A DNA stretch of 20,851 nt, taken from the IMG/VR virus record IMGVR_UViG_3300032249_000281, positions 1-20,851 of that record; one strand, given 5' to 3'. Below are positions 1,717 to 18,940 of this stretch, piece after piece. Each line of letters begins with the position of its first letter. The first letter of the stretch is position 1. Position numbers and translations under genes: made by a program. Source of the stretch: a virus. The notes under the pieces are model-generated. The model made no database searches, was not told the origin of the DNA, and saw only the letters and a program-made list of their open reading frames with translations.

Positions 1717-3548
1717 TACGACACATCCAGAACAAATCTAAATTCTATATAGTTACTTGTGTTTGTTTGCTTTACAATGGTGACTGCGCCAGGGGTTTCG
1801 ACAAGGGCATAACCAATCATTCCGTACAAAGGGTTAATTGTTGAAACATTATCAAGTCTTATTGCATCAAGTGCAATAAAATAATTAGAGTTAACCTTAT
1901 CAAAATTTCCAGTTGCGACAGCAGAAGTGACATTTGTTGCTGTTTTATTATATCTAAATGATGTTGATGTTGGTGCATCAAGAACAGTATAAGTACCGTT
2001 AAATGTCGAATCAACTCCATAGATAGTTACACCATCACCAGTTGTAAGGCCGTGTGGTGTTGAGCCAGTGCTTATGGTTGCAATATTGCTTGTTAAAGCT
2101 TTGTTTGATATTGTTGTTTCATTATCTATTGCACTAGCATAAATTTTAATTTCACTAACTGCATTCCAAGAAAAGTTAGCACTATAAATAAGCTCATCTA
2201 GTCTTTTTTCAACAGTAACATACCTATTGTTTAGGATGGTTGACCCTGTGATATCGCATTGCATTCTTGCGTATTGTGTTCCGTTACTGTCTGAAAACTC
2301 TACCATTACACGAATTTTTTCTGCAATATTTGCAGTATTGTTTCCAGTAACATTTACTACAGAAAATGCTATTTTTAGCAAATCTGATGTAGAGTTTCTA
2401 CTAAAATCAACAGTTTGTCCAGATAAATTAAAGAATGTTGGAGTTCCACCAAAAACAAAGTTGCTGCTAGAATCAAGACCAATATGTGAACTGTTACCTC
2501 TAAGCATAATAATATTATTTAAATATCTACATCTTTCATATCTACCTGCTCTGATGGTGTTTTCAAAGGTAAAGTTTGTTGATAAAGTTTGGATTGCCTT
2601 AGATGTAATAGTAATGTTGTTTGTTGCCTCTTCTGCCAATGGTTCATCTATCATCAAAGCATATATTGGGTTTGGATTTACTGGATTTGTGTCTGTAGGA
2701 ATAACCGCACTATTTGGACCAGATCCATTATTATATGTCCAGCTTTCTGTGTTTGCAAAAGCTGTAATTGTTTTGCTGTCATATGGGCCAGCACTAGAGT
2801 TTGCTCCAGCGGAGTATACTGATACCTCGGATATTTCATATCTTTCTTCAGTTGGTAGCTCCGCTGTCAGCACCACCTTATTAACCCCAGAATCGTTTAT
2901 GTAGCCTCTTGAGGTTATGGGAACCCTAAACATTTCAAAATCTAAAACCTGAAGAGATGGATTAATTTCTGCAGAAATTACAGCATTGTATAAATCTACA
3001 ACAGGTGCAGGATCTACAGTAAAAGTAGTTGAACTAGTTATTTCGGTTATTATAGTATCTTCTGTTGAACTTAACTCACCAGTTCCATATTTAATATTTG
3101 TTATTGTTCCAGCGGTAGGCGTAGTTCCACCAGTCGCTGTAAATGTTATAGATGTTGTGCTAGGAATTGTAGCAACAATATATAATCCACTACCACCCAA
3201 TGATCCAGTTCCAGCAGTTGCGGTAATCTTATCTCCAATACTTAAGCCTACAGTGGTAGACATTCCAGTAATAGTTGCTGTCCAAGGACCAGAGCCAGAT
3301 ATGCTTCCAACTGTTCCACTGTTAGATATAGCAATAGTTTCTTTTGAAACCAATGATATTTTGGCACCCTTCCAAAATGCATCCATGCTTGGCACGGTTA
3401 CAACATTTGAAGAACTAGAAGTACCAGAAGCTGAACTAGTTGTTAGTCTTGGTTTAGCTCCACACCCAAGGGCAATATATGCAGCATAGGATGATGTAGT
3501 GCCAAGCAAATACTTGGATATAATCTGTTTACCTGTATTGGTTATCAT
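1716..3548 (-). CDS. Probable receptor-binding / tail fibre protein with duplicated beta modules (610 aa)
   Basis: The N-terminus (MITNTGKQIISKYLLG...YAAYIALGCGAKP) and the block around residues 198-250 (LDFEMFRVPITSRGYINDSGVNK, TAELPTEERYEISEVSVYSAG) look like the base-attachment domain of phage tail-tip proteins. A Ser/Thr/Gly-rich beta module at about residues 77-157 interrupts this domain. A related module lies at about 483-548 (HGLTTGDGVTIYG, FNGTYTVLDAPTSTSFRY). Between them, about residues 320-480, is a jelly-roll-like region that could bind carbohydrate. The C-terminus (YFIALDAIRLDNVSTINPLYGM...YIEFRFVLDV) returns to a compact beta domain. The start is ATGA-coupled to the upstream stop and has an AGGA site. 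The receptor-binding role is inferred from position and composition. Confidence 0.6.
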   Translation of the reverse strand: MITNTGKQIISKYLLGTTSSYAAYIALGCGAKPRLTTSSASGTSSSSNVVTVPSMDAFWKGAKISLVSKETIAISNSGTVGSISGSGPWTATITGMSTTVGLSIGDKITATAGTGSLGGSGLYIVATIPSTTSITFTATGGTTPTAGTITNIKYGTGELSSTEDTIITEITSSTTFTVDPAPVVDLYNAVISAEINPSLQVLDFEMFRVPITSRGYINDSGVNKVVLTAELPTEERYEISEVSVYSAGANSSAGPYDSKTITAFANTESWTYNNGSGPNSAVIPTDTNPVNPNPIYALMIDEPLAEEATNNITITSKAIQTLSTNFTFENTIRAGRYERCRYLNNIIMLRGNSSHIGLDSSSNFVFGGTPTFFNLSGQTVDFSRNSTSDLLKIAFSVVNVTGNNTANIAEKIRVMVEFSDSNGTQYARMQCDITGSTILNNRYVTVEKRLDELIYSANFSWNAVSEIKIYASAIDNETTISNKALTSNIATISTGSTPHGLTTGDGVTIYGVDSTFNGTYTVLDAPTSTSFRYNKTATNVTSAVATGNFDKVNSNYFIALDAIRLDNVSTINPLYGMIGYALVETPGAVTIVKQTNTSNYIEFRFVLDVS

Positions 3549-9176: not shown

Positions 9177-12100
9177 TAATTCGCCTGCTTTCTTATTTTT
9201 TGATTATCTAACTGCTGAATTTGCTTTATCACAACTCGTGCAATCTCATCTGGATTAGAATCAGATTTAACATTTACGCTTAGGTTATAATTATACACCT
9301 TTTCGCCTTCGTATGTTCCACTATTAATTGCCTTCATTTTATCAACACCATAACTGCTAACAGCATATCTACTCATTACAAATTCTCCAGGGGTTAGCAT
9401 TGCTGGAACTATATCTGTACCACGAGAATATCCGCCAGCAGCAAAATATTTAGGATTAATCATTCCGCCAGAAGATTTGCCCACCATTTCTGCATACCTC
9501 ATTGCTTGGCCAGTATATCGTGCAGCTGAAAGTGCTGCTGCTGTTCCGCCGACTGCTTGTGTCATAGATTCTGATTTTGTTAGTGCTCTTGCCATATTTA
9601 CTGCTATAGTTTCTGGAGATAGGATTCCTTGTGCTTCAGCAACTGCTTTATTTAAACTTTTTATATTAGTTGCTGTTACAATTTCTGTTCTTGCAATCTC
9701 TGAAGCTGCCCATGCTGCCTTTGCTGCTGCATCGTTAGCAGCCTGTTGTGCTGCCGTTATTCCTCTATCCCCATCATCTAATAAAGAACCTGCAGCACTA
9801 AAACCAAGAGCTGCTGCTTCATATGCTGCTCGTTCTGATGCTTCATATGCTGCTCGTGCTGCTGCATCTGCTGCTTCTTGTGCTTCTTTAGACGTAATAA
9901 ATGGACTTGTTGGTTTAAATTTACTACTTGTAATTTGTGAAAGGGCTAGAGCAATTGAATCAACAATTTCCTTCATAGTCTTAAGTGGACCATCATTAAT
10001 CTTTTTCAGCTCATCTTTATAAGCGTCAAGTTTAAGTTGAACTGAATCCCAACCTAGTTTTTCTTTATCAATTGCAAGAAGTTTTGCATCAAGTATTGCC
10101 TGATTCTTATCAAGTTCCCCTTGTAGTGCATCTAACTTAGACTGTGCTGTTGCAAGTTGGTTAAACTTAAATCCATCAATAACTGTTTCAATGTTTCTAA
10201 TATCTAGAAGTTTTGCTTCTCTTAATTCTGTTATATTATAGATTCTATCTTCAATTTTAATAATTGCTTCTTTAGCAATTTTTGATTGTTGTTCTAGTGC
10301 AAAAATCTGTTGTTCAATTCTAAACTGTTCTTCTTGAATTTGTTTCTTTGTCATACCACTTGCAGAGCGCAAGTTTTCAATTTCGGACTTTCTTCTAGTT
10401 TCTAATAAATCTCTGGCTGAACGGTTTGCTGATTCTGCTGCATTAGCTCTCATTTCTTGTATCATCTGTGCTGCTGCAGAAATATCACCCTGTGATAAAG
10501 CATCTGCAAGAGATATTCTACTTTTTTCTTGTGCAGCAATATCAGAGTTTAGTTGAGAAATTTTAGATAAAGCTTCTTCTTGTTTGTCATATTTTTCATT
10601 AATTTCATCTGCAGCTTTATCAATTAATGTTAAATCATTAGATAGTATTGTTGATCTATCCTGCAACTTTTGAATAGGTCTATCAAAATCAAACTCTATC
10701 TTTCTTTGAGCATCATTAATTTCTTCTTGTAGGTCATCAAGTAAGTTTTGTCCAATATTTGGATCATACTTTAGTTCAAGATTAATTTTATCAATTTTAT
10801 CTTGTTCTTTTTCAATGTCTTTATTAATCTTTTCAACTTCACCCTCAGCAATTTTAATGTCAGCTTTTAGTTGAAAGTTATCTAAATCAAATTGATTCTG
10901 AAGTGTTTTGGCCTGTAGGTCAAGTGCAGAAATGTTTGCATCAATAGCATCTTGTGTTTTTTGCTCAAAGGTGAGTGTTTGTTTTCTAATTAACTCAAGA
11001 AGATCAGAATACTCTTTGGTCTTATTTATTAAATCACCAAACTTATCTACAGTATTTATTGTTCCATCGGCTGAAGCAATAGCCCAAGCATTATTTTTGT
11101 CTTTTAGTATTTCAAGAATAACTTCTTGTTTTACTCCTGCAGCAGACAGTCTGTTATAGGCCTCAATTTGCATCTTTGTTTCTGCAATATTTTCATTAAG
11201 TTTAATATTGCTTAGTTCATAATTAAGGTTAATAGTTTTTTGTATTTCTTTGTTTAGTTCTGCTTGCTCTTCTTTAGTAGCTTTTAGTCCACCCTGTGCA
11301 GCAATCTTTGCAGTTAGTGTTGCATTTTGTAATATCTTTTGAATTTCAATTGAGTTATATCCCTCATCTGTTAATGCTTTGTGGGCAACAATTTGATCTT
11401 CAATTTCTTTACTTGCATCCTTTACATCTTGAATATACCCACCAATTGTGGCTTTGCGGAATCCTTCATTAATAATAATAAAGTCATCCTTTAGTCCCTT
11501 AATTCTTCCATTTTTGGATATGTCAAACAAAGTTTTTGACCATAGCACAAATTGTTCAGCATCTAAACCTCTAATAATTTCCATGAAATCTTTATCAATA
11601 GCAATTCCAGCAGACTTTGCTGCTGCCTCTATTTGTTTAATTGCTCCACGCTGATCATCAAGTCCTGGGTTTATTGATTTTTTGCCACCATCTTCAAGGA
11701 ATTTCTTTAGAGATTCTAATGGCTTAAGAGCATCAAATGCACCTTCTTTAACAAGTTTTAATCTTTGAGCAAGATCAAATAAGAATGAGTCATCTCTTGT
11801 TGGACCAGTATTTGTGTTGCCAGTTGCTCCACCCTTCTTTGAGTCATCAACTGTTCCAACACCAAACAGTTGTGGTGCAACCTTTGAAAAATATTTGCTA
11901 GTTGCCTCACTTATATTATCTGCATCTTTTTTAAATGCCGCAAGTGCTGCTTTTTTTGCTGCTTCTCTTTTAGGATCAACAAAACTATAGTTTAAGTCAG
12001 GGTTCTTTGCATAAAACGCCGATTCAAGTTCTCTGTCTAAAATCTTATCAAAACTATCACTTTCTGTAATAGATCCAATAGTAATCATTGCCTGGAATTG

Positions 12101-15100
12101 TAACTCTTTAGGAAGTTTAGAGATTGCAGTCCATTGCTGAATGGCAGCATCTAATGTTAGATTTTTTTCTGGACCACCTGCTTCTTCTTGCATCTTAACA
12201 AGTGCGTTAAGATTTATTTGACCATTAGGGAATTTCTTTTTAAGAGCATCAATTTCTTTTCCACGAGCCTTAAGATCTACAATATTATTTTTTTGTGTTT
12301 CAATATTTAAATCAATACCAATATAGTCTGGAATCTTTCCAAGTTCTTCAATTGCAGAGAATGTTTCATCTGCATCAGCCTTATCCATATTTTTAATAGC
12401 AAAAACAAGTTGTCTTTGATTGTTTTCATTTGGAAGCATTGTTAGAATTGTAGAAAGTCTTTGTACTCCTTCTGTTCCTTGAACACTAACAATTGCCTCT
12501 AATCTTTTCTGAACATCTCCACCCATGGTAGTGAGGGTGTTTACAAGTGTTGATGCTTCTGCTGGAGCAAGAACATCTGATGTAACTAATGTTGAAATCT
12601 CAAGAGTTATTTTATCGTTTCCAATTGCATCAAGTTCTGCTTGAAGTGCTGCAGCCTGTGCCTTAAGTGGGGCATTGTCTTTGAATTTATCTTGCATTCC
12701 AACTGCAAATGCTTCCATGTATTTATCACGAACTGCACCACGACCAGAGCCAAGTGGACTAATTTTTTCAAATATTGATGGACCAGAAACTTGATCTAGC
12801 ATGTCTGCAGAAGTCTTTAGCATATTTGCTTGCTTTGATCTTAGAGTCTGTAATCCGCCCTGTTTCTTAGATTCTAAATCACGAATTTGTTCATCTACTG
12901 CTGTTCGTTCTTTTTCTGTCTTTAATGTTTTCTTTTTAAGTTCAAGATTTGCAATAGCAGAATCATATTGAGATGTCAATGCATCTATACTTGCTTGTGA
13001 AGCAGCAACATTTTGTGATACTATTCCCTGTAGCATTCCTGCTGACTTTCCTATTGCAGCTTTTTCTTTACCCTTTTGCCAACTTCTAATCGCTGCTTCA
13101 ATACCGCCAAAAATTACTGTTGATACAGCCAAACCAATTGCTCCAGGAACAATACCAACGCCTGTAGCACCTGTTGCAAGAGAAGCAACTTGTCCACCAG
13201 TTCTTACTGCTCTAGCAACTGCTAATGCTTTTCCTACTTTTGTCATTTCTGTAGTTGCCTTAGCAATGGCTGCTTCAGATCTAGCAATTGCTGCAGCATT
13301 TGATCCCATTTGTACCATGTTTGCTGCTTGAACTCCTGCTCTTGCTCCAAGCAGTCCTCCACCAATTGCTCCTGCTCCTAGTTGAGCAATTTCAGTTTTT
13401 GTGTTAATTCCAGTTTGTTGCTTAGCAACTAGATTCATGTTATCAAGAGCAGCCTGCTGAAGCCTTTCTCCAGATGCCATTAAGTCAAGTTGAACTTGTA
13501 ATGGATTATTAAGAATATTTTCTCCATTTGGTCCAAGTAGTTGAATTAATTTTCCTCTAACATCAAGTTCAAGTTTTGCATCTTTAAGATTTCTTGTTAG
13601 TGCAACAGCAATTGATTCTGCCTGACCTCTATCAAGAACTCCTTGTGATACTGCTGTTCCAAGTTGATTTACTAATGAATCTACAGCAGGTCCTGAACCA
13701 AGTGTTGCCATTGAAGTGTCAAATGATTTTTTAAGGTTTTTTCCAAAATCACTGTTTGAAATAACGTTGTTTCCAAATTCCATACTAACTGGAACTATGT
13801 CTGTATTTCTTCCTGCTCTTTTTGCTTGTGCAACCTGAGTAATAGAAACTTTTCCAGTAATCTTTCCAAGCTCTTCAAGTTGTTTTGTAGTCATAGTCAT
13901 TGACTCTGCTTGCTTTTGTCCTTCAATTATATTCTTTTTAATTGTTGCTGCTTGCATTTTAAATACCGCAATTAAGCCAACGGCAGTGGCTGCAAGTAGT
14001 TTAAGTGGACTATTAAGCATTGGCAAAAGCATAGTCAGCATAGATAGCATCATAATTGCATTCATGTTTTTTGCTATTGCACCTTCTGGATTTTTTTGAG
14101 CAACCATTCCAGCAGCCATTGGAATCATCATTCCAGCCATCTGCATAGGCATCATTTTTTGTGTAAAGTTCATTCTATTCATTTGACGCTGATTAGTACG
14201 TTCTGATGCAGTTGCTGCTCTTGTAGTTCCGTCCTCATTTGTAACTGTTGGAGATACGTTTCCGTACCCAGTTAAAAATCCACGGAATCCACGAGTTTTA
14301 TCTTTGCCAAAAGACTCAGTTGTTTTATCTGCTGTCTTTCCAAGATCTGCAACTTTTGGAGTTGCCTTACTCATTTGAGCAGCAAACTTATCAATTCTTT
14401 CTCCAAGTTTTTTAACTCTTGGCTTATCAAAGAATTTATCAATTGCTCTTTCAACTCTATCTGGAGACCTTGTTCCAGCAGGGGGGGTATCTTTAACTGG
14501 ATCTCCCGATGAGTCAGTTCTCCATGAACCAGGATTTCCAGTCCAAGGAGTAACGTTTGATGCTTCAAAACCAGGAACATTGTCTGCAATCATTGACTGA
14601 ATGAGTGGCATATACTTTGCAGATTGTTTTGCAGGAATTACAGCTTCTCCTGGTGAAAGCATTGCAGGTTGAATATCACCAGCACCCTTTGGACCAGGAA
14701 CAGAAAATATTCCATTACTTAAATATAAAAAAGGATCTTTCTGAGCATTTTTCATTCTGGTAAATACTGTCTGTAATGCTTCTTGAAATGTTTTTCCACT
14801 AGTAGAAGTCAGTTTACCAAAATCAAAAAGTTGAGATAACTCAGGATTTTGTTTTATTAGTTCTTGAATAAATTTATTTTGGCTTGGGTTAGTAGAAGTA
14901 ACAGTTGTAGATGTTTTAGTTAAATCAAAACCTAAAATGTCTGCAAGATTATTTATTTGTTTTTTAATATTTATTTTTCTTGGTTTAGCATTTTTTGGTA
15001 TTGTAATTCCTATTTCTTTTGCTAAAGCATCAATTTCTTTTTTAGATAGATGAGATGCGGCTGCTTTAAATACTCTTTCTTTTAGATCTCCAACATCTTT

Positions 15101-18100
15101 TTGAAGAAGATCTGATGGTTTTTGAATACCTCGGAATCCAGCTAGTGCAGAATTTCCAATATCTAAATTAACAAACCTTCCAGTTTTTTGATCAAACATT
15201 ACATTTCCAGCGTGTGTGTCTACATTACCTATAAGACTATTAAACACAGCATCTTTTGTAGCATATCTTTTGTATGATAAAAATAATTTTTTAACTGCTG
15301 CTTTTGGATCTTTTTGTTTTCCTATCCATGAATCTAAACTATTTTTTGTTGATTGCTTAACAGTAGGAATAAACCTGCTTCCTACAATATTTTTATCAAA
15401 CATCTGTAAAGGAACTGCATTACCTCCAAATTTAGATAAAAGATTTGATGCAATTACCTCAGATGTTGCTTCTGGACCAGACTTTAATTGTTTTACATAA
15501 TATTTTTTACCACTAATATCTCTAAAGCCACCTGGAGTTGCTCCTTTTTTATCTTTATCAAAATCTGCAATATTAAGTTCTTTTTCAGTAGCACGACCTA
15601 CAGATTGTGATTGTTTGTTTTGTGTTCTTACTGGACGTGGAACTGCAGCAATACCACGAATAAATCCAGGAACACTGTCAGAAATCATTGATCTATTTTT
15701 AGAAATTGTCTTAAACGGTATTGGCATTCCTAGAGAAACAACTCCTCTAGCAAATCCTGGAACACCAGTTCTTGGCAATTCTTTTATTTGAGAATTTGTT
15801 AGGCCAGCATCTTTTAACAATGAAAGTTGGTTTGTTTTTGCACCAAACTTTTCGTAATATCCACTAGCAAGTCTCTTATCTAGTGTTGCATGAACAGCCT
15901 TTTCAATTGCAGATCTTTTAGAAGCAGGCTTGTCTAAAATCATCTTAAGTGCTGCTTGTGCCTGATCTCTTCTAGATATGTGCATTCCACCAAGAGAAGT
16001 CTTTGATATATCTTGGAAATATTTATTTAAAAATGACTGCTCTTCAAAAACATTGCTTGGTGAATTTCTCTTATATTGAGTTAATCCTGGTAATTCACCA
16101 ACCTGTCTATCTGTAAATCTATGGCTAAGTGCTCCAGAATATCTAAACTCTTTAGCATTTGCTCCTTGTGCACCCTGAATTTTTAATAAGTCGTCTGGTG
16201 TTAGTCCATATGGATTACCCTTAGTTTGTGAAAGAAGTTTTAAATTTTTAACTTCATCTTTGTGGGTTTTAACAAGTTCTTTATAAATTGGAGAATTTTT
16301 ATATCTTGTTCTTAAGGCCTTAAGTTCTTTTGGAACTGCTCTAACTTTGCTTGCATCATATTTTTGTAATTTACTAAATACTTCTCTAGGACTTAAAACA
16401 TCTTTGCCTGCAAGCCTTGTTCTTAATACATGCTCAAGTTTTCCTTCTGTTGTATCAGCATACCCCTTCTTTGTGCTAACTGGTCCTCCAGGAAGTCTAC
16501 CCTTAGACTCAAGCCATGTTTGATTATCTTTTAATAAACTTTTTAGTTCGTCAACTTTTTCTTTTCTTACTCTAAAAGATTGTGATCCTACTGTTACACT
16601 TACTAGACCATCTGCTCCTTCAGTAAATCTAATACCCGAAAGTCCAGGTCTTGTCAATGAACCAGATGCTATTGAAATAACTGGTGCTGAGGCTCCGATT
16701 GCTCCTCTTGTTGATACAGCCCTTCCAACATTTGCTGCTGCTCCGAATGCTGGGAATGCTCCAACTCTTCCAGCCATAAACCCTGGAACCTTATCTTGAA
16801 TAATTTGATTAATAAATCCTGCATATTTTTGTGTTTGTTTTGTTGGAATAACAGACTCTCCAGGTGAAAGCATTGCTGGTATTACATCCCCTGCTCCCTT
16901 TGGTCCTGGAACAGATGTTGTTCCTTTTGCAAATTTTCTAGGAAGCACAACTCCACCCCTAGGCATAAACATTCCTGGGTTAGTTGCTGCAAATGATCCC
17001 ATAGTTGCGTTAGCTCTAGCATATACAGACATCAAAGAAGATAGTGCTGTTGACTCTAGTGCATATGCTGCAGATAGTTGTTGGTGTTTAGAGTAAAGAG
17101 CATTACTAATAGAAATATTTTCTAATTCTTCTTGTGATAAATATTGTGTTTTTAGTGCTGCATCTGTTGATCCCGCAGCAAGTTGCTGATAACCTTTACG
17201 AAGAACTTGAACACCTTTAACAGAGTTTGCAACGGCATTTGCAAGCAAACCAAATGTCATTAAGAATATTGGTCCTAATCCACCAACTACAACAGTTATA
17301 ATTCCAATAGCTTTTTTTATTCCTTCTGGAAGGTTATTAAATTTTTCTGCCATTTTTGCAATAAATTCAATTACTGGAGTAAAAACTTTAGCAAATAATT
17401 CTCCGATAGGGGCTATAGATTTTTTAAATCTTTCTATTGATCCAGCTAATTTATTCATTGGAGAATCTGCTTGAATCTTTAATTCTCGTTGGCTTAAAAT
17501 TGCAAGTTCTTCTACAGAAGCATTAGTAAGTTGAAGAACACGAGCAGCCTGAGTTCCTTCTCTTCCTAGGTTATTTAAAAGTGCAGATATTCTTGCAAAC
17601 TGATATTTACCAAAAACTTTTTCAATTACTCTTGAACGTTCAAGATCAGTTAGTGGTTGTAGTGCTTGTGCAAATCCAGTTACTGTGTTTCTTAGATTTC
17701 CCTGGTTGGCTTCAACAATGCCCTTGATATTAATTCCAACTGCTGCTGCAGCCTTTGATGCAGCATTGCTTGGGTTAATTAAAGATGCAAGACCTGACTT
17801 AAGTGCGTTAGCACCTTGTGCTGCAGAAATTCCACCTTCTTGCATTGCAGCCATAAAGTATGCTAAATCTTTTACATCTCCACCTAATTGTTGAATAACT
17901 GGTGCAACCTTTGGAATTGCTTCTGTTAAATCTTCAAGGGCTACAACTGTTTGGTTTTCAACTGCGTTAAGGAAGTCAATTGTTCCAGCCATTGCTCCAG
18001 TATCAATTTGAAAAGCATTTTTAAGTGCAATTGTTGTTTCTAATGCTTTTTCTTGTGTAACTCCACCGAGTACTGCAAGTTTATTTGTTTGCTCTACAAG

Positions 18101-18940
18101 GTTTTCTAGTCCCTTACCAGAAAAGCCTGCTGCTGCTGCATCTGCTGCAGTCTTGATAGTATCTGCAACCGTAAGCCCATATTTTGTATATTCATCTGCT
18201 AATGCACGAATATTTTTTAAAGCAGCCTCTGTTGCTCCTTGATCTGTAAAAATATCTCCATAAACTTTTTTAAATCTAATTACTTGAGTTTCAATTTCTT
18301 TAAATACTTTTATTGCCTGAGTACCAAAAAGCATAAGTGGAATAGTAAAACCAACCATGAGTTGGCGACCTGCCCATTGTGTATTTTTACCAAAGTTTAA
18401 AAGTTTTGTAGATCCATCATCAATAAGTTTGTTCATTATTTGTTGACGCTGGGTTGCCATCATCAACTGTGTAGTTAGGTTCTGCATGTTCAATGACTTT
18501 GGAGTAAACTTCATAGAGTTCATTGCACCCTGAGCATCACGTCCTAATTGAACATACTGCTGCTGTAGAGTCTTTACACGCTTATCTACAAGTTTTTCAA
18601 TAGTGTCAAACTCACGACCAAACATCTTTCCAAATGTTTTGGTAGATGCTGCACCATATCTAAAATATTCTTTAAGTGATAGTTTTTGTCTATCTAGGCT
18701 TGTAGCAAACTGCTCAGATGCAGTGCTCATTCGTGTCATTGATGCTGTCCACTGGCCAGTGGCATTTACATTGTGTAGAAGAGATTGTGCGTATTTTGCT
18801 TGTGCTGCTGCTGCAGTCTTTGTTCCAACAATTAAAGAGCGGTTAAGGGCTGTGAGTTCCTTCTCAAGTAAACGCAGTTGCGCCATTGCTTGCGAAGTAT
18901 CAATATTTATAAAAATATTGGTATTTGTATCCCCAGCCAT
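9176..18940 (-). CDS. Giant tail tape measure protein carrying a kinase-like domain (3254 aa)
   Basis: The TMP sets tail length, is packed in the tube lumen and is ejected before the DNA. Visible order: N-terminal helices; a TP901/PhageMin_Tail-type region at about 180-500; hydrophobic segments at about 194-211 and 537-572; a repeated linker at 676-724; an unrecognised module at 725-1059; VPGF repeats at 1060-1066 and 1090-1096; a kinase-like domain at about 1132-1330; a second linker at 1413-1458; a Met-rich hydrophobic stretch at about 1587-1670; a Gly/Ala-rich hydrophobic stretch at about 1910-1952; a long coiled coil at about 2685-3000; an Ala-rich stretch at 3021-3107; and a C-terminal VPAMLTPGEFV motif. 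GAAGG lies 10 nt upstream of the ATG. The stop overlaps the next start. The TMP call is very secure; the kinase call is from motifs. Confidence 0.95.
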   Translation of the reverse strand: MAGDTNTNIFINIDTSQAMAQLRLLEKELTALNRSLIVGTKTAAAAQAKYAQSLLHNVNATGQWTASMTRMSTASEQFATSLDRQKLSLKEYFRYGAASTKTFGKMFGREFDTIEKLVDKRVKTLQQQYVQLGRDAQGAMNSMKFTPKSLNMQNLTTQLMMATQRQQIMNKLIDDGSTKLLNFGKNTQWAGRQLMVGFTIPLMLFGTQAIKVFKEIETQVIRFKKVYGDIFTDQGATEAALKNIRALADEYTKYGLTVADTIKTAADAAAAGFSGKGLENLVEQTNKLAVLGGVTQEKALETTIALKNAFQIDTGAMAGTIDFLNAVENQTVVALEDLTEAIPKVAPVIQQLGGDVKDLAYFMAAMQEGGISAAQGANALKSGLASLINPSNAASKAAAAVGINIKGIVEANQGNLRNTVTGFAQALQPLTDLERSRVIEKVFGKYQFARISALLNNLGREGTQAARVLQLTNASVEELAILSQRELKIQADSPMNKLAGSIERFKKSIAPIGELFAKVFTPVIEFIAKMAEKFNNLPEGIKKAIGIITVVVGGLGPIFLMTFGLLANAVANSVKGVQVLRKGYQQLAAGSTDAALKTQYLSQEELENISISNALYSKHQQLSAAYALESTALSSLMSVYARANATMGSFAATNPGMFMPRGGVVLPRKFAKGTTSVPGPKGAGDVIPAMLSPGESVIPTKQTQKYAGFINQIIQDKVPGFMAGRVGAFPAFGAAANVGRAVSTRGAIGASAPVISIASGSLTRPGLSGIRFTEGADGLVSVTVGSQSFRVRKEKVDELKSLLKDNQTWLESKGRLPGGPVSTKKGYADTTEGKLEHVLRTRLAGKDVLSPREVFSKLQKYDASKVRAVPKELKALRTRYKNSPIYKELVKTHKDEVKNLKLLSQTKGNPYGLTPDDLLKIQGAQGANAKEFRYSGALSHRFTDRQVGELPGLTQYKRNSPSNVFEEQSFLNKYFQDISKTSLGGMHISRRDQAQAALKMILDKPASKRSAIEKAVHATLDKRLASGYYEKFGAKTNQLSLLKDAGLTNSQIKELPRTGVPGFARGVVSLGMPIPFKTISKNRSMISDSVPGFIRGIAAVPRPVRTQNKQSQSVGRATEKELNIADFDKDKKGATPGGFRDISGKKYYVKQLKSGPEATSEVIASNLLSKFGGNAVPLQMFDKNIVGSRFIPTVKQSTKNSLDSWIGKQKDPKAAVKKLFLSYKRYATKDAVFNSLIGNVDTHAGNVMFDQKTGRFVNLDIGNSALAGFRGIQKPSDLLQKDVGDLKERVFKAAASHLSKKEIDALAKEIGITIPKNAKPRKINIKKQINNLADILGFDLTKTSTTVTSTNPSQNKFIQELIKQNPELSQLFDFGKLTSTSGKTFQEALQTVFTRMKNAQKDPFLYLSNGIFSVPGPKGAGDIQPAMLSPGEAVIPAKQSAKYMPLIQSMIADNVPGFEASNVTPWTGNPGSWRTDSSGDPVKDTPPAGTRSPDRVERAIDKFFDKPRVKKLGERIDKFAAQMSKATPKVADLGKTADKTTESFGKDKTRGFRGFLTGYGNVSPTVTNEDGTTRAATASERTNQRQMNRMNFTQKMMPMQMAGMMIPMAAGMVAQKNPEGAIAKNMNAIMMLSMLTMLLPMLNSPLKLLAATAVGLIAVFKMQAATIKKNIIEGQKQAESMTMTTKQLEELGKITGKVSITQVAQAKRAGRNTDIVPVSMEFGNNVISNSDFGKNLKKSFDTSMATLGSGPAVDSLVNQLGTAVSQGVLDRGQAESIAVALTRNLKDAKLELDVRGKLIQLLGPNGENILNNPLQVQLDLMASGERLQQAALDNMNLVAKQQTGINTKTEIAQLGAGAIGGGLLGARAGVQAANMVQMGSNAAAIARSEAAIAKATTEMTKVGKALAVARAVRTGGQVASLATGATGVGIVPGAIGLAVSTVIFGGIEAAIRSWQKGKEKAAIGKSAGMLQGIVSQNVAASQASIDALTSQYDSAIANLELKKKTLKTEKERTAVDEQIRDLESKKQGGLQTLRSKQANMLKTSADMLDQVSGPSIFEKISPLGSGRGAVRDKYMEAFAVGMQDKFKDNAPLKAQAAALQAELDAIGNDKITLEISTLVTSDVLAPAEASTLVNTLTTMGGDVQKRLEAIVSVQGTEGVQRLSTILTMLPNENNQRQLVFAIKNMDKADADETFSAIEELGKIPDYIGIDLNIETQKNNIVDLKARGKEIDALKKKFPNGQINLNALVKMQEEAGGPEKNLTLDAAIQQWTAISKLPKELQFQAMITIGSITESDSFDKILDRELESAFYAKNPDLNYSFVDPKREAAKKAALAAFKKDADNISEATSKYFSKVAPQLFGVGTVDDSKKGGATGNTNTGPTRDDSFLFDLAQRLKLVKEGAFDALKPLESLKKFLEDGGKKSINPGLDDQRGAIKQIEAAAKSAGIAIDKDFMEIIRGLDAEQFVLWSKTLFDISKNGRIKGLKDDFIIINEGFRKATIGGYIQDVKDASKEIEDQIVAHKALTDEGYNSIEIQKILQNATLTAKIAAQGGLKATKEEQAELNKEIQKTINLNYELSNIKLNENIAETKMQIEAYNRLSAAGVKQEVILEILKDKNNAWAIASADGTINTVDKFGDLINKTKEYSDLLELIRKQTLTFEQKTQDAIDANISALDLQAKTLQNQFDLDNFQLKADIKIAEGEVEKINKDIEKEQDKIDKINLELKYDPNIGQNLLDDLQEEINDAQRKIEFDFDRPIQKLQDRSTILSNDLTLIDKAADEINEKYDKQEEALSKISQLNSDIAAQEKSRISLADALSQGDISAAAQMIQEMRANAAESANRSARDLLETRRKSEIENLRSASGMTKKQIQEEQFRIEQQIFALEQQSKIAKEAIIKIEDRIYNITELREAKLLDIRNIETVIDGFKFNQLATAQSKLDALQGELDKNQAILDAKLLAIDKEKLGWDSVQLKLDAYKDELKKINDGPLKTMKEIVDSIALALSQITSSKFKPTSPFITSKEAQEAADAAARAAYEASERAAYEAAALGFSAAGSLLDDGDRGITAAQQAANDAAAKAAWAASEIARTEIVTATNIKSLNKAVAEAQGILSPETIAVNMARALTKSESMTQAVGGTAAALSAARYTGQAMRYAEMVGKSSGGMINPKYFAAGGYSRGTDIVPAMLTPGEFVMSRYAVSSYGVDKMKAINSGTYEGEKVYNYNLSVNVKSDSNPDEIARVVIKQIQQLDNQKIRKQAN
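9346..9430 (-). repeat. C-terminal PAML-PGE motif of the tape measure protein, copy 3
   Basis: The protein segment GGYSRGTDIVPAMLTPGEFV near residue 3180 is a diverged third copy of the linker motif. It lies in the usual place for tape measure proteins, about 75 residues from the C-terminus, and is followed by a conserved-looking beta tail (YNYNLSVNVKSD). Confidence 0.7.
9816..9863 (-). repeat. 24-bp tandem repeat (two copies) in the Ala-rich region of the tape measure gene
   Basis: Two adjacent 24-bp units share the + strand core gcttcatatgctgctcgt at 9816 and 9840. They encode consecutive 8-residue units beginning AAYEA. The segment sits in an Ala-rich stretch at about residues 3021-3107 and looks like a recent in-frame duplication that lengthens an amphipathic helix. 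Confidence 0.75.
14567..14704 (-). repeat. Tape measure linker repeat, copy 2 (residues 1413-1458)
   Basis: This copy reads SVPGPKGAGD, then PAMLSPGEAVIPAKQSAKY, then DNVPGFEAS. It follows the kinase-like module directly, so the two full copies bracket both inserted domains. Short partial copies (VPGFARG at 1060-1066 and SMISDSVPGFIRG ending at 1096) separate the two modules from each other. Confidence 0.8.
14951..15547 (-). other. HipA/PI4K-like kinase domain inside the tape measure protein (residues 1132-1330)
   Basis: The segment follows the order of an atypical protein or lipid kinase. GGFRDISGKKYYVK could be the nucleotide-binding loop and strand, with K1150 as the ATP-binding lysine. 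E1161 in SEVIASNLLSKFG could be the helix-C glutamate. After a helical stretch comes NSLIGNVDTHAGNVMFD, with D1241 (catalytic) and N1246 (metal), then FVNLDIGNSA with D1260 as the DFG-type metal ligand. The D-x4-N spacing and the 'GN-x-D-x-H-x-x-N' form match HipA, CtkA and phosphatidylinositol-kinase families better than Ser/Thr kinases of the Hanks type. All key residues appear intact, so activity is plausible. The substrate is unknown. Confidence 0.65.
15764..16768 (-). other. Unrecognised inserted module in the tape measure protein (residues 725-1059)
   Basis: This stretch lies between the first linker repeat and the VPGFARG repeat. It is unlike the helical or coiled-coil body of the TMP. 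It is basic and mixed alpha/beta, with a short beta region (GADGLVSVTVGSQSFRVRK) followed by helices (EGKLEHVLRTR, LSPREVFSKLQKYD, AIEKAVHATLDKRLASGYY) and polar patches such as RYSGALSHRF and LGGMHISRRDQAQ. The His/Arg/Ser patches could belong to an active or nucleic-acid-binding site, but I recognise no catalytic signature. It occupies the same kind of slot as the kinase-like domain. A linker-only explanation is unlikely because of its varied composition. Confidence 0.4.
16769..16915 (-). repeat. Tape measure linker repeat, copy 1 (residues 676-724)
   Basis: The protein-level repeat begins SVPGPKGAGD, continues PAMLSPGESVIPTKQTQKY and ends DKVPGFMAG. Copy 2 at 14567-14704 keeps the same order with few substitutions. 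Similar PAML-x-PGE motifs are common near TMP C-termini in other phages; here they also frame the inserted modules. The repeat is clear in protein but diverged in DNA. Confidence 0.8.
18901..18920 (-). promoter_or_regulatory. Perfect inverted repeat at the 5' end of the tape measure coding sequence
   Basis: CAATATTT (18901-18908) and AAATATTG (18913-18920) form a perfect 8-bp inverted repeat with a 4-nt loop, placed 20-39 nt inside the tape measure gene. In mRNA it could form an AT-rich hairpin close to the initiating ribosome and reduce initiation or pause early elongation. It is A/T-rich, so it is only marginally stable and could be chance. Confidence 0.3.

Follow-up and report, generated by a model that had tools for sequence, protein, structure and literature searches.

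What is a kinase-like domain doing inside a phage tape measure protein (TMP), a protein that sets the length of the tail, fills the tail tube and, in the phages where this has been studied, is ejected? The locus that raises this question is IMG/VR record IMGVR_UViG_3300032249_000281, a fragment of 20,851 bases (20.9 kb) from an uncultured virus, here called the window. The original prediction, made from the letters of the window, saw an apparently intact HipA/PI4K-like kinase domain at 14951-15547, which corresponds to residues 1132-1330 of the TMP. Our comparisons support a HipA/PI4K-like kinase core within this TMP at about residues 1117-1340, a domain that we call type A. It appears that an enzymatic cassette within the TMP can be exchanged: in the window it is a putative HipA/PI4K-superfamily kinase related to the kinases of MuF proteins, and in most close relatives the same slot is filled by another predicted domain, CtkA/HipA-like, which we call type B. 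We favour the view, with a probability of roughly 0.62, that the kinase is enzymatic cargo, ejected with the TMP and modifying host molecules.

The identity of the TMP comes from three independent libraries, which match its N-terminal part: phrog_10030 (residues 45-647, E=6.5e-86), PF10145 (250-444, E=3.3e-27) and TIGR01760 (201-557, E=2.1e-30). The genes before it are one whose match to a major tail protein (phrog_885) is weak and a pair of small paralogues, and this place after the tail tube and chaperone genes, together with the profile matches, is that of a phage TMP.

The residues named in the original prediction, K1150, E1161, D1241, N1246 and D1260, are all at the positions and in the order given there, and the domain thus has the sequence of β3 lysine, αC glutamate, catalytic aspartate and asparagine, and metal-binding D-x-G. 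The word "intact" fits the window kinase only as regards these catalytic residues. Written as an ordered pattern (hydrophobic-K, E, N-x-D-x-H-x-x-N, hydrophobic-D-x-G), they appear in 1 of 5000 shuffles of the window TMP, and among 7378 real open reading frames (ORFs) from 162 sequences the pattern was found in the window TMP only. A Pfam scan of the segment alone ranked PI3_PI4_kinase (PF00454) first, aligned across the catalytic core. HipA_C (PF07804) had no match in the window record in a profile scan where the positive controls matched. A phmmer search of the PDB with the window domain gave chance matches only, and a profile of its family alignment, A4, had no match there.

To find relatives we made a pattern from the motif [FY]RDxxGxxYYVK, which led to 11 further loci with a type A-like domain; in isolated phages the sole match of the window domain is a weak one, to a 3289-residue protein of Actinomycetia phage DSL-LC01. 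A hidden Markov model (HMM) of 12 virion kinases, with the window excluded, matches TMP residues 1130-1286 at E=1.4e-8 among the 7378 ORFs, a value partly due to the motif by which the loci were picked, and with this motif masked the HMMER score was by itself not significant. The part after the motif, aligned alone with hhalign, scored 32.1 as compared to 13.6 ± 2.4 for shuffles (maximum 21.5), and none of 200 shuffles reached as high. An HMM of three MuF kinases from bacterial genomes, in which the exact search motif is absent, matches the window N-lobe at E=1.5e-4; these three were caught via a catalytic-loop pattern, yet confirmed by their similarity to the window. In A4 the equivalents of K1150, E1161, N1239, D1241 and D1260 are invariant and that of N1246 is kept in at least 90%. 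The conservation of the lysine comes partly from the locus selection, that of the glutamate and the two aspartates does not. Thus the positions singled out in the original prediction, K1150, D1241 and D1260, do not vary freely among the MuF kinase homologues. The D-x-H-x-x-N spacing is compact in the window, whereas the relatives have a few residues inserted between the catalytic D and N. That residues 1117-1340 are not a kinase and resemble one by chance would agree with the below-threshold Pfam match and with a single-sequence model that is uninformative, but the rarity of the pattern in shuffles, the two family HMM matches, the motif-free part that no shuffle equalled and a profile match to type B make it very improbable.

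Several of the type A relatives are MuF head-morphogenesis proteins. Two of those examined, at 6088-12216 of L271 and 5195-10081 of L273, hold an ADP-ribosyltransferase domain in addition to MuF and the type A-like kinase, and L271 also has a NUDIX domain. ADP-ribosyltransferases are known host-takeover effectors, and kinase, MuF and ADP-ribosyltransferase together are the architecture of injected host-takeover proteins. Type A-like kinases were also found in Thalassotalea and Endozoicomonas genomes, at three loci that are probably prophages, MuF-fused in two of them (L264 and L265, not L266). In L165 (1771-3687) MuF is joined to a PF00454 domain above the gathering score, with the loop VIGNVDRHGGN. 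Two further phage proteins, in L164 and L166, have a PI3/4K-like kinase. The pattern GNVDxHxGN retrieved mainly unrelated ORFs from viral contigs, together with some kinases, one of them MuF-fused. Of 48 type A-like MuF-type ORFs, none has the N-terminal domain of the family to which the window TMP belongs.

The original prediction had also proposed to look for the same D-x-H-x-x-N segment in the TMPs of related phages. The window's kinase is present in none of L002-L161, so that the idea of a kinase common to the close relatives was rejected, and its homologues are in MuF proteins instead. What the related TMPs do share is the frame around it. Viral contigs contain TMPs that are up to 95% identical to the window TMP in its N-terminal 650 residues. 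In the comparison with the TMP of L027, identity is 66-92% as far as residue ~1050, drops to 6-30% across residues 1100-1400 and is 82% from 1400. The cassette in the window covers residues ~1087-1400 and adds about 300 residues. Where the N-termini are about 90% or more identical, the slot holds type A in the window, type B in L002-L007 and neither in L024, and a Pfam scan of the slot in kinase-free TMPs found no other enzyme. Judged from these alignments, the slot is exchangeable and seems to have been filled repeatedly by HipA/CtkA-superfamily kinases. A repeated motif, PAML[ST]PGE, occurs at residues ~680, ~1410 and ~3178 and brackets the exchangeable region; it is possible that these linkers are a recombination seam or a processing site.

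Type B is a domain of about 280 residues, seen in 142 examined ORFs. The TMP N-terminal domain is present in 134 of these and the remaining 8 are cut by contig ends, thus no type B domain was found outside TMP ORFs. It starts anywhere from residue ~741 to ~1385, and at 2829 in L080. In IMG/VR at least 350 stretches match it, but the bacterial genome set and a translated search of 50,697 phage records gave no match, and it has no credible match in Pfam, PHROGs or the PDB sequences. An AlphaFold2 model from 33 sequences had a predicted local distance difference test score (pLDDT) of 91 and a predicted template modelling score (pTM) of 0.89, and all six Foldseek matches in the PDB with E<=0.001 were CtkA (E 1e-4 to 4e-4, probability 1.00). 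After CtkA the list continues with protein kinases, RioK1, HipA (rank 15), Fam20C and PI3K. The Foldseek viral library gave phage multidomain proteins annotated as ADP-ribosyltransferase and portal, and an archaeal-virus PI3K/PI4K protein. The kinase fold predicted for type B is in our opinion well supported by this model. All 85 distinct sequences compared, which form 31 clusters and go down to 35% identity, keep K60, E71, D141, D143, N148 and D156, six invariant positions in an alignment where only 12.6% of the columns reach 98.5% identity. The median ratio of nonsynonymous to synonymous substitution rates (dN/dS) is 0.14, that is, purifying selection.

The two domains can be compared directly. 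The spacing D143-N148 of type B is +5, as for D1241-N1246 in the window, and when the type A and type B profiles are compared (probability 74%, E=2.9e-5), K, E, D and D-x-G fall in matching columns, so that the two kinase families are distantly alignable. The window domain would fold like its type B counterpart, and a kinase fold is a good candidate for it. The HipA/PI4K-like kinase of the original prediction is thus supported by sequence, residues and homologues, with a two-lobed fold that is putative for the window domain. The comparison with known structures that was proposed there was uninformative for the window model itself, and it was the domain in the same slot of the nearest relatives that matched CtkA best.

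The invariant positions of type B bear on whether the segment is structural filler or a degenerate pseudokinase, adding only length or flexibility to the TMP. TMPs tolerate length changes, a cassette of this size would be such a change, and type A was seen once in a TMP. Against this are the six catalytic-type positions kept in every type B sequence when so few columns are conserved, the low dN/dS of type B, and the survival of all five key residues in the window, and we regard filler as improbable.

The distribution of the slot contents likewise bears on a kinase that acts before infection, in the producing cell, where it would phosphorylate, or modify in another way, the TMP itself, tail proteins or chaperones while tails are assembled, its delivery being incidental. 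The restriction of type B to TMPs would fit such a role, and since synthesis is in the cytoplasm, the domain would be folded there before it is packed into the tube. The kinase is, however, present in some close relatives and absent in others, which argues against an essential role in assembly, since relatives with N-terminal regions about 90% identical have a kinase-free slot. The type A relatives in head-ejection proteins with ADP-ribosyltransferases point to host takeover. We find an assembly-stage kinase unlikely, although it is the strongest of the alternatives. Slightly less likely still is that the kinase fold is kept for another nucleotide chemistry, such as AMPylation, polyglutamylation, modification of a nucleotide or lipid, or inactivation of a defence signal. 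The sequence assigns the domain only to a broad superfamily, the HipA_2, PI4K and CtkA signals are mixed, and SidJ, a pseudokinase glutamylase, stands at rank 31 in the type B Foldseek list; the full K/E/D/N/D set is kept, however, as expected for phosphotransfer.

We thus return to the kinase as injected cargo. Two observations speak for an active, host-directed enzyme: type A is combined with ADP-ribosyltransferases in head-ejection proteins, and type B is under purifying selection. What we infer about catalytic activity, substrate and delivery is as follows. The domain would run through the tail lumen along with the rest of the TMP, in an unfolded or loosely folded state, would exit with it at infection, and would then fold in the host envelope or cytoplasm. 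There it could use ATP on a host molecule, in the simplest case by phosphorylating a host protein, and this may help the phage to take over early or to stop a defence. Several points weigh against this explanation. A narrow tail tube is physically an awkward place for a globular domain, and no second TMP with type A was found, so that type A has been seen once in a TMP. The PF00454 match to the window domain (E=0.0062, 16.9 bits) is under the gathering score of 27.1 bits, and the single-sequence AlphaFold2 model has a pLDDT of 48 and gave no fold match in Foldseek. With CtkA, type B reaches template modelling (TM) scores of only ~0.4, which places type B at the superfamily level only. The record itself is a fragment of an uncultured virus.

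The favoured explanation can be extended from the window to a large group of siphophages, which may use the TMP for effector delivery: a slot bounded by PAMLSPGE would take interchangeable, active kinases of the HipA/CtkA superfamily, injected with the DNA and modifying the host early. Since the same slot has received two kinase families that are far diverged, it would be the activity and not the sequence that is selected. For this wider claim we consider the chances to be even.

Among known systems, the proinflammatory kinase CtkA of Helicobacter pylori (PDB 3akj/3akk/3akl) belongs to the same small HipA-like superfamily and is the best fold match of type B. It is a separate bacterial protein and not part of a virion, its identity to type B is 13-16%, and the match belongs to the slot relative, not directly to the window domain. 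The HipA toxin kinases (PDB 3dnu; PF07804 and related families) have a core with D-x-H-x-x-N and D-x-G together with the β3 lysine and αC glutamate, as in the window domain. The window differs from them in the missing HipA_C match and in having neither a HipB partner nor a toxin-antitoxin layout. The loop of the MuF-fused kinase of L165 nearly equals the IGNVDTHAGN of the window, but that kinase is in a head protein and not in a TMP, and the PF00454 score of the window is below the cut-off. The MuF and polyvalent-protein kinases (for the class, see PMC5512222) are related to type A by sequence and are cargo of the virion type, accompanied by host-takeover partners; they differ in being borne by head-type proteins and in the insertion mentioned above. 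The kinases that PMC5512222 describes in injected polyvalent proteins are of other families, and neither tape measure nor HipA is mentioned there. Tme of the Streptomyces contractile injection systems (PMC11126660) is a TMP-related protein that, as proposed for the window TMP, has an enzymatic domain as cargo, but there the enzyme is an endonuclease at the C-terminus and its carrier is a contractile injection system and not a phage, whereas the window kinase is internal to the TMP. These injected polyvalent-protein kinases and this tape-measure-related nuclease effector are the nearest published concepts. The original prediction knew of no described TMP with a kinase, and our searches of the open-access literature, with few subscription papers and no preprints among it, likewise found no paper in which a TMP is linked to an effector kinase, HipA-like or other.

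The coordinates of the features are collected in the table.

Table. Features of the window discussed in the text; residue numbers are those of the TMP.
Feature	Residues	Position in window	Strand	Basis or remark
TMP ORF	3254 aa	9176..18940	(-)	PF10145, phrog_10030, TIGR01760 matches
Conserved TMP N-terminal domain	~45-650	16991..18808	(-)	profile matches; <=95% identity to relatives
Linker motif copy 1, SVPGPKGAGDxxPAMLSPGExVIP	~671-702	16835..16930	(-)	
Domain C, between linker copy 1 and kinase slot	~731-1060	15761..16750	(-)	slot comparison
Slot upstream flank PGFARGVVSLGMPIPFK	1061-1077	15710..15760	(-)	conserved in relatives
Kinase-like domain, type A	1117-1340	14921..15592	(-)	PF00454 E=0.0062; virion-kinase HMMs; alignment A4
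Gly-rich loop and β3 lysine GATPGGFRDISGKKYYVK	1133-1150	15491..15544	(-)	aligned to GSNxGGxYRDxxGNEYYVK of virion kinases; codon of K1150 (in YYVK) starts at 15493
Candidate αC glutamate	E1161	15458..15460	(-)	invariant in A4; codon starts at 15460
Catalytic loop GNVDTHAGN with D1241 and N1246	1238-1246	15203..15229	(-)	codons start at 15220 (D1241) and 15205 (N1246)
Metal-binding motif DIG	1260-1262	15155..15163	(-)	codon of D1260 (in LDIG) starts at 15163
Linker motif copy 2, slot downstream boundary	1410-1458	14567..14713	(-)	identity to relatives back to ~80%
C-terminal PAMLTPGE motif copy, shorter form	~3163-3195	9356..9454	(-)	
Short tandem paralogue, 109 aa		18961-19290	(-)	phrog_10504
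Long tandem paralogue, 240 aa		19333-20055	(-)	phrog_10504

Domain C is variable, common to some relatives and replaced in others, and it matches no assigned family. It has conserved SH and xHxxxxxA positions, and is the sole slot content in many relatives (L082, L083, L094). The two tandem paralogues are 48% identical over 83 residues, and the long one has an additional C-terminal domain. They occupy the usual position of the tail assembly chaperones G/GT, and the duplication could stand in for the usual G/GT frameshift pair. The best-known relatives of the window TMP are from Streptomyces and Gordonia phages, hence an actinobacterial host is likely.

Most of the enzymes that phage virions are known to carry belong to heads, as T4 Alt, the MuF proteins and the polyvalent proteins, or are wall-degrading domains of tails. 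If the kinase in the TMP is what it seems to be, the tail tube itself would be a device for protein delivery, comparable to what the tape-measure-related nuclease does for contractile injection systems. It also raises the question of how an enzyme gets through a tail tube. Type B is a defined and easily expressed domain, and through it one could ask which molecules phages phosphorylate on entry. Our results suggest that the tails of the window phage and of many of its relatives would deliver an enzyme into the bacterium in addition to DNA.

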